Source: Tetrahymena elliotti 4EA
Taxonomy: Eukaryota > Ciliophora > Oligohymenophorea > Hymenostomatida > Tetrahymenidae
Direction: 5' to 3'
DNA length: 64,000 bases
NCBI GenBank assembly: GCA_000231825.2
Contig: JH720306.1
Span: 353,784-417,783 of the forward strand
Each line of letters opens with the position of its first letter. Positions within the stretch are counted from its first letter, which is position 1. Position numbers and translations under genes: made by a program. Below the pieces are notes generated by a model, which worked only from the letters and a program-made list of their open reading frames with translations, was not told the origin of the DNA and made no database searches. This document shows, piece by piece, positions 25,006 to 32,115 of this stretch.

Positions 25006-28000
25006 ATGTCATCATATTCTTAGTATTCTAAAGTCTTAGATGTAAAAAAGCTGATAGATCTATTTTAGCAAAATTCTTATGAAGAAAACAAAATTAAAGA
25101 TCAAGATATTATCTTATTAGTAGGATCTACAGGTAGTGGCAAGAGTACAACAGCTAATTATCTCATAGGATCAGATTTGTATTAAAAAGAAATTGATTAT
25201 ATTGATATTATTGATGGTGAAGAAATGGAATTAAGTGAAAGTGTAATTGCTTCAGAGAATGGAAAATTCTTAATTGGACATACTAAAGAATCTCATACAT
25301 AATCTCTATAAATAGAATAATTATAGGATTCATTATACTTATGTGATTCTCCTGGGTTCTTTGATAATCGTAGTGAAGAAATCGAAATTGCAAATGCTTC
25401 AACTCTAAATAAATTTATGTCGACTTGCAAGAGTGTGAGAATGGTAGTACTAATTAGCTTTGATCAACTAACTGCTCAAAGAGGAAGCTCATTTTAAGAA
25501 ATATCTGAGCTTTTAACTAGAATCCTCTAAATTCCGGATGAAGAAAAATTTAAAAAAATTCTCTTCTTGCTTACAAAGGTTCCAAAAGATAAAAAATAAG
25601 GATAAATAAATAAAGAAATATTGGAAATTCGAAAGATGTTTTAAAATAAAGAGGATTTAAATGACGATCAAAAAAATATAATAACAAGCCTCCTTAGTGT
25701 TATATTACAGTAAGTTTAAAAAAATAAAGAATTAATGATAGTAAATCCTCTTACCAGAAATTATTAAGATTTAATAAATAAAATCTTAGAGTAGGCACCT
25801 TTTAATAATCCATCTCAAGATTTTTCTTTTACTATTTCTAAGAAATCAACTTTTATGATAAATTAGTTTTTACAAGAAACTCAGAACTAAATTTCCAGAT
25901 TATAATCAGATGGGGAATACAAATATATAATAAAATTAATTCAAAATGTAAAATAGTTATGTGACTGTGTTGGATAAACATACCTGTAGTTAGAATTTCA
26001 AAAAATGCAGTAAAAAATTGGCATATAATTGTAAGAAAAGTGTTAATAAACTATACAAATATTTAAAGAGTCAGCAGAATACAGTATTATTTTCAATTCT
26101 GAAAATATGAAAAATATAAATGATATTATATCCCACTTAAAAATCATTGATGAATATAAAAATTTAGTTTTGATTTCAGATTATTTTAGAATGGATGAAT
26201 CTACTTTTAAGTAAGAAATTGAAAATGTTTGCTGTGAAATGATTAAAACAATATTAGTTAACTTTCCTAATGACATGTAGAAGGTTTAAAAATAAATATT
26301 GATGTTGAAAGAATTTATTGAAAACACTTCTTTAGCATAAGAAGTTTATGAATAATAATTAAAAACTAAAATCTAAGTTAAATATAGAGAAGAATAAGAT
26401 GCATTTAAATAAAGAATAGATAAAATGTATGAAAAACCATCTTTCTTTGAGATAAATTAAAAAAAATTAGAAATAAATCAAATTGCTTCAAATCTTGAAT
26501 TTTTTGAGAAAATTGAAAAATTTTTAGGAGAATTTATTGTAGAAATAAATTAAAATATTTCTTTCACTGTTTTTATTTAGCAAATAGAATAAAAAAATCA
26601 AGAGTTATTTGATAAAATTTAGAAATTTATTGACTTAAATCAATAAAAAGAAGAATTAGAAATGGAAAATTTTGATGAAAGCTTACCTGATTTTGAACTT
26701 TAAATGATAAAAATGCTATCTGAAGATACTTTACTATATAAATATGGTGTAAAGTGTGAAGAATTATACCAAGAAGCGCTTTAAAGCTTGTAGAACTGTA
26801 TTTAATAAATTATTTCTATAATAACATAATAAAACTTAATTAATTAAGGTCCATCAAAAATAAAAACTATCTTTGATGCTCTAAACAAAATTAAAAACTT
26901 AGATGATCTAATTTAGATACCCGTAATAGAATAATTGTAGCCTATAAAGAATCAAATAAATTCAAAAATAGAAAAGAAAGCTAATTAAGCAAGAGATATT
27001 TTAAAGCAATATTCTTAAGAGCTTGAAATATATTAAGAAGATTCCAGATTCTTAGATGAATAAGGAAAAATAGCCAAATAATTAAAATAAAGAAAAGATT
27101 TTAACAAATTAAAAGAAATATATAACTTTAATAAAAAAATACTGTGCCTTAATAGCTAATTAAATAATATAAATATTTAAAAAACAATCGATAAAATAGT
27201 TAAAAAACTTTCAATTTATTTTGATAATATCAAATAAAACATTGAATATTACATTTAGTAAGAAAATCTTCTTTAGCTTGAGTATTTTATATCTTAAATG
27301 AGTTACTTTATGATTTTCAAAGACTTCTTAGAAAATAATGAAGAAAGATATGATTCAACTCTAAATATTATTAACTAAAAACTAATAAAAAAGATGAATG
27401 ATATTAAAGGAGAATTCCAAAAAATGAAAGATCAGAAAAATTTTAATTTTAATGATTGGGATAGCTTGAATTAAAATATCATATTTTTGAAAAAAATTGA
27501 TAAACTATCTCTTTTTGATGATATCAAAAAAGAATCAAAAGAAATTATTTAAAATATAACATCCTTTTTAGATAGCTATTACTGCGATAATATCAAATAA
27601 ATTAAATAAATTAGTTAATAATTTAGAAACAATTAAATAGATTATTCAAAATATGAGTAATTTATTCAATAATCTCAATAAATATCTGATAAATTCTAAG
27701 ATGTTGAATAACTATTTACTCTCTATTCCTATCAAAAGCTTGGTGATGAAGTCAAATAAATATTTTATGAAATTTCTTCTGTTTATTAAAATATTAAATA
27801 ATAGAGTGCAAATCTATAGGAAATTTAAAATTATTATGATTCATTAAAAAATTTTGTTGATAAATTTAAATAATTTAATTTAATTTCTGAATTTAGAAAT
27901 ATATCGTCTCCATAAGAAACTATTTAAGAATCATTTAAAAAAGTGAAAGAATTTTTAAGAAATTAAGATTTTGTTAACTTAGAATATGAAATAGAAATTT

Positions 28001-31000: not shown

Positions 31001-32115
31001 TATTTGTAGATAATATATATAAAGATCTGATTAAAAAATATCCAAAATTTGAAAATTTATTTAAAAGACACATTTAATAGTTAGCTAAAGATGTCTAAAA
31101 TATTTAGAATCACCATAAAGAATATTAATATATAGTATTGAATGAAAGAATCGGATATAGATAAGTTGATTCTTCTTTTAATTTTGAAACTAGTATTGGA
31201 TATAAAACTCTTTTTGCATATTTCTATGAAAATTAGAAGAAAAAAATAAGTGATTAAACATTAGAAAGTAAAATCGAATTAACTTTAGGATGTGGAAGTA
31301 TTTCTTATGCTTTATTGCCAAATGAATATGCAACTATTTTAGGAGTAACAGGAACACTTTAAAATTTAAACAAAGAGAGGCAAAAAAATATTGAAATTTA
31401 TAATATAAAAAATGGAGTATAAATCCCTTCTATGTTTGGTAAATCAAATCTTGATTTTAAAAATACAGTGATTGAAAAAGATTATGAAGAATAATATCTT
31501 AAAATTAAAGAAGTTTGTAAAGAGGCTCAAGAAAACGACTAACCTGTACTTATCTTCTTTAAAAATAGTTAATTATTGGATAAATATTATAATAGTGCGT
31601 ATTTAATCTAGAATAATTAATATATGATAATTAAAAGTTATATTGATGATTTAGCATTAGATTCAGATATCAAATAAGCAACTCAAGCTAGATAGATATC
31701 TCTTATTTTAAAAGAACATGGAAGAGGAATTGATTTTGCATCTTTAGATCCAAGAGTAAATAGATAAGGTGGTGTTGTTGTAATTTAAACATTCCTATCT
31801 GAAGATAAAACAGAAGAAATTTAAATTTAGGGAAGAACTGCAAGATAGGGTTCAAAAGGTCAATATTATTTAATTTTAAATTAGATAGAAATTTAATAAT
31901 AGCTAAATGTAAGTGATAATGATATAAAATAATGGAAAAATTGTATTTATGAAAAGTTAGATTAAAAAAGAAATTAATTAGAAGATGAAAAATATAGATA
32001 GATTGAAAAAAAAATTTTACAGGCAAGAGCAATTAATGATAAAAGTATGAAGTATTATTCAGATATTATCAAGAATTAGAAAGAAGCAATTAAGTTTATA
32101 AATGAATATTCATGA
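25006..32115 (+). CDS. Giant GTPase - coiled-coil - SecA-type DEAD motor protein, 2,369 aa
   Basis: ATG at 25006 and TGA at 32113-32115 lie in one frame, 2,370 codons, with no intron seen. Residues 30-230 form a GTP-binding domain: P-loop GSTGSGKST at 40-48, DSPGFFDNR near 114 (G3) and LTKVPKD near 190 (G4), closest in style to AIG1/GIMAP or IRG GTPases. Residues 300-1790 are Lys/Glu/Gln-rich coiled coil. From about 1800 a SecA-like motor begins: PHCSQIFSIFMVLGFYHTKG, a Walker A-like LTGQGKS near 1848, ILLIDEVDVFF near 1948 (DEVD, as in SecA), VTGTLQN near 2115, then GRGIDFASLDPRV near 2238 and IQGRTARQGSKGQYYL near 2274, the SecA motif V/VI block. The Cys-rich SecA tail and preprotein cross-linking domain are not evident. 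Reaction inferred: GTP and ATP hydrolysis coupled to remodelling of an unknown polymer or membrane. It does not look plastid-derived; function unknown. Confidence 0.88.

Follow-up and report, generated by a model that had tools for sequence, protein, structure and literature searches.

The window analysed here comprises 64,000 nucleotides of contig JH720306.1 of the ciliate Tetrahymena elliotti 4EA and carries on its forward strand a single-exon gene whose product joins an N-terminal GIMAP/AIG1-like GTPase, a long spacer and a C-terminal SecA-type motor (Table 1). Read in the ciliate code, in which TAA and TAG specify glutamine (214 codons of this gene), the frame contains no TGA across its 2369 codons before the terminal stop, compared with 26 to 138 in each of the five alternative frames, which ruled out a chance open frame. 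An in-frame TGA lies upstream at 24958, the sole ATG between it and the gene body is the one at 25006, and two Tetrahymena homologues (P0002 and P0006) start within a few residues of the same point. A Dna2-like gene (PF08696) adjoins the gene downstream and the locus therefore looks nuclear, in agreement with a preliminary description made from the letters alone, which had proposed a ciliate nuclear gene. All motifs quoted there (GSTGSGKST, DSPGFFDN, TGQGKS, DEVD, GRGIDF and QGRTARQGSKG) were located in the frame, and the proposed fusion of a GTPase with a SecA motor proved genuine, as both lie in one uninterrupted frame and the layout recurs in homologues. We regard the domain identities and the architecture of the protein (GTPase, spacer, SecA-type motor) as very nearly certain.

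Table 1: Features of the GTPase-SecA gene, with positions in the window.
Feature	Residues	Position	Strand	Basis
Single-exon open reading frame, 2369 aa (TAA/TAG=Q, stop TGA)		25006..32115	+	frame reading in ciliate code
GIMAP/AIG1-like GTPase domain	11-282	25036..25851	+	
P-loop GSTGSGKST (G1)	40-48	25123..25149	+	read from translation; family pattern
S-x-T, probable switch I (G2)	96-98	25291..25299	+	invariant in 20-row alignment; role inferred
DSPGFFDN (G3)	114-121	25345..25368	+	read from translation; family pattern
Spacer, probably helical, length better conserved than sequence	283-1672	25852..30021	+	composition and family comparison
SecA-type motor region as modelled	1770-2369	30313..32112	+	AlphaFold2 model; SecA best fold
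Walker A TGQGKS	1849-1854	30550..30567	+	read from translation
Walker B DEVD	1951-1954	30856..30867	+	read from translation
Insert of ~130 residues where SecA carries its preprotein cross-linking domain	about 1965-2094	30898..31287	+	homology weak
Motif V GRGIDF	2239-2244	31720..31737	+	read from translation
Motif VI QGRTARQGSKG	2275-2285	31828..31860	+	read from translation
Long C-terminal helix, aligns with SecA scaffold start	2314-2356	31945..32073	+	alignment, AlphaFold2 model

SecA is taught as the protein-export motor of bacteria and plastids. Profile and fold comparison both preferred SecA to an ordinary superfamily 2 (SF2) motor for the C-terminal region, as the preliminary description had supposed. 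The AlphaFold2 model of this region (pLDDT 89.2, pTM 0.85) had SecA as its best fold, and the part that can be aligned with SecA (residues 1841-2361) falls within the interval originally designated (1790-2369). SecA_DEAD (PF07517) was matched in the window protein with 31.9 bits against a cut-off of 24.6; within the family, Pfam detected SecA_DEAD in 33 and P-loop_SecA in 31 of 39 motors, and the E value of the motor profile was about 19 orders of magnitude better for SecA than for the helicase Mss116. A generic SF2 helicase was rejected on the grounds of this profile preference, the best fold and the Pfam matches. SecA_PP_bind (PF01043) and SecA_SW (PF07516) were found in none of the 39 family motors at E 0.01. 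Because the protein ends 84 residues past motif VI, the helical wing and the C-terminal zinc finger are missing, and of the SecA scaffold the first long helix alone is present in the model. The suggestion that the preprotein-binding and zinc parts are absent thus stands for the zinc end; for the preprotein part "absent" is too strong, since the insert at this position partly, if weakly, aligns with the SecA preprotein cross-linking domain. Altogether, the motor has the two lobes, the order of motifs, the scaffold helix start and the position of the insert in common with bacterial SecA and SecA2 (PF07517, PF21090), but differs from them in lacking the wing, the zinc end and any SecA_PP_bind or SecA_SW match, and in being fused to a GTPase and a spacer.

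For the N-terminal domain, profile and fold comparison likewise identified GIMAP/AIG1 as nearest, consistent with the AIG1-like GTPase that had been predicted. Pfam analysis of residues 1-320 gave AIG1 (PF04548) with 30.9 bits against a cut-off of 27; AIG1 did not appear in the output when the protein was scanned at full length, and at E 0.01 it was matched in eight of 20 family members. The domain has a GIMAP-type G-domain fold, the best structural matches being GIMAP7 (3zjc), GIMAP4 (3lxx) and GIMAP2 (2xtn), and the fold matches include further immune-type GTPases (GBP1 and Irga6). The P-loop pattern is kept in 78 of 81 family GTPases, as is the G3 pattern. The fold and the P-loop are shared with GIMAP/AIG1 GTPases, whereas sequence identity to the GIMAP rows is only 13-21% and the domain here sits inside proteins of 2,300-3,500 aa. 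The PADLOC profile of the MADS defence protein mad8, which comes without a cut-off and was the one MADS component looked for, matched the window GTPase weakly (25.4 bits, 2.3e-6, residues 31-214) and P0006 with 17.2 bits.

The two domains are separated by a spacer whose length is better conserved than its sequence. The distance between GTPase and motor has a median of 1,462 residues (quartiles 1,399 and 1,590, range 1,091-2,081) in 84 proteins, ten of which are frames of the T. elliotti 4EA genome, and this spread may be narrowed by the homologue search, which admits total lengths of 0.55-1.75 times the query. The spacer sequence drifts, as a profile from ten close members found few distant relatives, and these weakly. 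The low contents of proline (0.9%) and glycine (1.1%) suggest a helix, and the spacer is therefore probably helical. A regular coiled coil was rejected since periodicity analysis revealed no dominant heptad period, and the coiled coil originally claimed is unproven. Self-comparison for internal repeats yielded nothing beyond weak off-diagonal matches, the best of which had an E of 0.0088 and a probability of 4.6%, and comparison of the spacer with solved structures gave no relative at E 1e-3.

Using the motor of the window protein as query, 22 matches at 18 loci of the T. elliotti 4EA genome were obtained. With the GTPase as query, an upstream match on the same strand was detected at 17 of these loci and, by profile, also at the locus on contig C5; the order GTPase then motor is thus found at all 18. 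Eleven loci, the window gene and ten others, carry both in one frame, and in three of these (L020, L022 and L028) the motor end reads N. At six loci the two matches are in different frames, those on C5 containing TGA, which may reflect introns or decay; for the remaining locus (C36) the frame was not read. Five loci are clustered on C76, four on C7 and two on C87, and this number and clustering bear out the strong expansion at which the preliminary description had hinted. Three paralogues on C7 are single long frames like the window gene.

Selection was examined in ten paralogue pairs by the ratio of nonsynonymous to synonymous substitution rates (dN/dS) according to Nei-Gojobori, some pairs being near saturation. 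In four pairs among L020, L022, L023 and L024 on C76, dN/dS was 0.15-0.26 for the GTPase and 0.22-0.29 for the motor, compared with 0.37-0.43 for the spacer and 0.34-0.48 for the N-terminal part. Wherever L020, L022 or L028 enters a pair, the motor value rests on 412-415 codons, as the motor end reads N. Ranked against the other regions, the GTPase came lowest in seven of the ten pairs and second lowest in two, and in L021/L030 (0.66) its value was the highest. All values stayed below 1 (maximum 0.87), and consequently positive selection is not apparent at the resolution of this method.

Further GTPase matches occur among the clusters. On C7, three of them on the plus strand (1170977-1171768, 1187722-1188486 and 1230539-1231309) have no motor match and are oriented tail to tail with GTPase-SecA genes on the minus strand. 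These genes follow one another at intervals of 16-17 kb, apart from one of 26 kb, which looks as though a partner gene had been duplicated along with them. On C76 an extra GTPase match (400677-401513, minus strand) lies near the contig end with no motor match nearby.

The family extends well beyond this genome. A protein search with the motor gave 571 matches, of which the best 120 were listed, and a further search scored those 7,993 candidates with the most words in common; match length was restricted in both. Among the matches listed, the closest proteins are from Tetrahymena (46-50% identity over the motor). A GTPase was detected in 60 of the best 120 by single sequence and in 74 by a one-round profile. 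Both domains are present in Heterostelium (P0067), Blepharisma (P0110), Hydra (P0105), Brachionus (P0053), Adineta (P0109) and Pseudocohnilembus (P0029 and P0039). In the other 46 of the best 120 the one-round profile found no GTPase; every one of the ten Hexamita entries belongs here, as do one of the two Hydra entries and the Chrysophaeum, Reticulomyxa, Arcella and Rotaria entries. The recurrence of the layout in 74 of the 120 long homologues, together with the 18 loci of one genome, does not agree with the view that the architecture is rare. Six entries seem from their labels to be transcript-derived (P0011, P0014, P0034, P0035, P0038 and P0116), and three of them (P0014, P0035 and P0116) contain GTPase and motor in one frame. 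Full-length models exist in three Tetrahymena species, among them P0006 of T. thermophila (2402 aa); as this is a standard laboratory organism, the function is directly testable. Two other T. thermophila models, P0222 (a 311-aa GTPase) and P0122 (an 813-aa motor), are located on contigs of equal length (877,599), and since P0122 starts with the spacer end, the two may be one gene split in annotation.

Additional domains were observed in some relatives. vWA domains (PF13519 or PF00092) occur in 12 of the best 120 (P0009-P0012, P0015, P0027, P0029, P0034, P0039, P0057, P0060 and P0062), PF04564 in P0061 and P0111, and PF02263 and PF01419 in P0032; we take these three families to be U-box, GBP and jacalin-type, respectively.

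The main motor tree comprised 52 rows including nine canonical SecAs, plastid and cyanobacterial SecA being left out. The canonical SecAs were set apart on one side (100/100), and the eukaryotic-type motors formed one long-branched clade with six genes from metagenome-assembled genomes (MAGs) (100/100); long branches meet at the base in this and a second tree, so that false joins are possible. The window gene clusters with six Tetrahymena-type genes (100/99) and next with Pseudocohnilembus and vWA-bearing relatives (98/97). This position inside a Tetrahymena clade within a larger clade containing Pseudocohnilembus, together with the single-frame paralogues on C7, argues against the late acquisition that had been read from the single exon. 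The paralogues L019, L024 and L025 group with the Hydra proteins P0105 and P0121 (99/97), and with L023 added the group received an SH-aLRT value of 99 in the second tree. One genome therefore contains at least two old lineages; whether they arose through ancient duplication or through transfer, the tree does not tell.

Scanning of bacterial genomes revealed seven eukaryote-type loci, three in Gammaproteobacteria, three in Chlamydiae and one in an Actinomycetota MAG, and in six of the seven a GTPase is present in the same frame. For three of the six MAG genes in the tree the neighbours were scanned, and all three contigs carry bacterial genes: RNase E beside L037, AcnA and a c-di-GMP enzyme beside L032, and NhaA and DnaQ beside L038. 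Eukaryotic contamination was accordingly rejected for these three. At 1e-20 the motor profile matched ten of 151 genomes of the phylum of the Chlamydiae MAG, and in two of the ten, one being the starting genome, most of the motor was spanned. One eukaryote-type match in this phylum, L062, lies on a contig extending past 867 kb; its long frame contains a single internal TAA, and it may be a copy in decay. When viral contigs were scanned once with two short patterns, which is weak evidence, no relative pointing to a viral origin emerged.

A second class of SecA motors was noticed in T. elliotti at seven loci (L009-L015 on C30, C10, C32 and C8). Their products, like that of the window gene, are very large and end in a SecA motor. 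The class differs in forming a clade of its own (five rows, 96/90), which the MAG gene L051 joins, and, in the two members scanned, in higher SecA_DEAD scores (129.9 and 117.9 bits), with SecA_PP_bind near threshold and no GTPase Pfam match.

Several published observations bear on this family, all of them taken from the accessible parts of the papers. A 2013 report on the wBol1 Wolbachia genome recognized a eukaryotic secA clade apart from prokaryotic SecA, with members from Tetrahymena, Polysphondylium, Daphnia, an ant and mosquitoes and with transfers into Wolbachia and Amoebophilus (PMC3639933). The window gene very probably belongs to this clade, judging from the taxa named rather than from the sequences of that paper: in both cases SecA motors of long eukaryotic proteins are separate from prokaryotic SecA, whereas the accessible description includes no GTPase, fixed-length spacer or mechanism. 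The effector domains listed for Amoebophilus in 2012 include a SecA-like helicase-related and a GIMAP-type GTPase domain (PMC3482391); both types are found in the window protein, but there the two are listed next to each other as domains found at C-termini, and the accessible text does not assign both to one protein. SecA was also reported among the eukaryote-like domains of phage WO (PMC5062602), SecA-like ATPase domains in giant actinobacterial toxins (PMC8195603), a SecA DEAD-like protein of Legionella where genes acquired from eukaryotes are treated (PMC4256840), and secondary SecA_DEAD proteins, which lie outside the present comparison, in Planctomycetes and other bacteria (PMC4452313). 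A description of the GTPase-spacer-SecA layout was not found in literature from which subscription papers were mostly out of reach, nor was an assay of the family or a paper on PF07517.

Our preferred reading, to which we give somewhat less than an even chance, places the window gene in a widespread family of giant proteins with two engines, in which a GTP-switched motor pulls on or remodels polypeptides in the cytosol. GIMAPs, GBPs and Toc GTPases assemble on membranes, AIG1/GIMAP GTPases as GTP-dependent oligomers. By analogy, the GTPase would load GTP and assemble, perhaps on a membrane or particle, and would act as a switch controlling or positioning the motor; the spacer would be a probably helical arm that sets the reach, and the ATP-driven motor, devoid of wing and zinc parts, would pull on or remodel bound polypeptides. 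Polypeptides are proposed as the substrate because bacterial SecA acts on them, moving preproteins together with SecYEG, and because the sequence relatives are SecAs rather than nucleic-acid helicases; ordinary export is made less likely by the loss of the wing and the zinc part. This sequence of switch, arm and pulling motor is put forward tentatively. Ciliates, amoebae, animals and other eukaryotes may thus have put the protein-moving SecA engine to a second use.

Among the alternatives, a cell-autonomous defence or conflict factor, whose GTPase would recognise a foreign vacuole or particle or form a coat on it while the motor dismantles its proteins, survives best, though it is doubtful; it can overlap with the GTP-switched polypeptide puller as the purpose of the same machine. 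Such a role, possibly that of the family, is made attractive by the tandem expansion in T. elliotti, the relatives in Chlamydiae and Gammaproteobacteria MAGs and the GIMAP-like GTPase with its immune-type fold matches. It also fits the C76 pairs, in which spacer and N-terminus change faster than the two engines, the vWA domains of some relatives, the weak mad8 match and the SecA relatives in Wolbachia and Amoebophilus (PMC3639933, PMC3482391). However, dN/dS stayed below 1 in every region, the wide distribution fits a housekeeping function as well, and a role of mad8 was not found in the literature. More speculatively, and with similar doubt, the family would represent an undescribed, broadly eukaryotic class of GTP-gated polypeptide pullers, a cytosolic SecA on a length-conserved arm of ~1,400 residues governed by a GIMAP-type GTPase, belonging to a cell-autonomous defence arsenal also acquired by intracellular bacteria.

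A translocase that works at an internal membrane, importing or exporting proteins, and that descends from the SecA of plastids or bacteria is improbable. The SecA fold and the insert at the preprotein-domain position speak for it; yet the motors form a long-branched clade apart from the canonical SecAs in a tree that omits plastid and cyanobacterial SecA, the wing and zinc ends are missing, and the family occurs in Hexamita, Hydra, rotifers and Heterostelium, which are not known to have plastids. Similarly improbable is a motor turned into an RNA or DNA helicase, given the SecA_DEAD and P-loop_SecA matches in most family motors and the profile preference over Mss116. An artefactual fusion of two genes through a missed intron or boundary, for which the split T. 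thermophila models might speak, is hardly credible in view of the TGA-free frame, the full-length models in three Tetrahymena species and the three fused transcript-derived frames from other organisms.

Other features were recorded in the window. A run of 100 N (32226-32325) begins about 110 bases past the stop codon of the GTPase-SecA gene. Two further genes on the minus strand encode an alpha-galactosidase (PF16499, 41190-42686) and a D-Ala-D-Ala dipeptidase-like protein (PF01427, 60484-61608), the latter from a mostly bacterial family.
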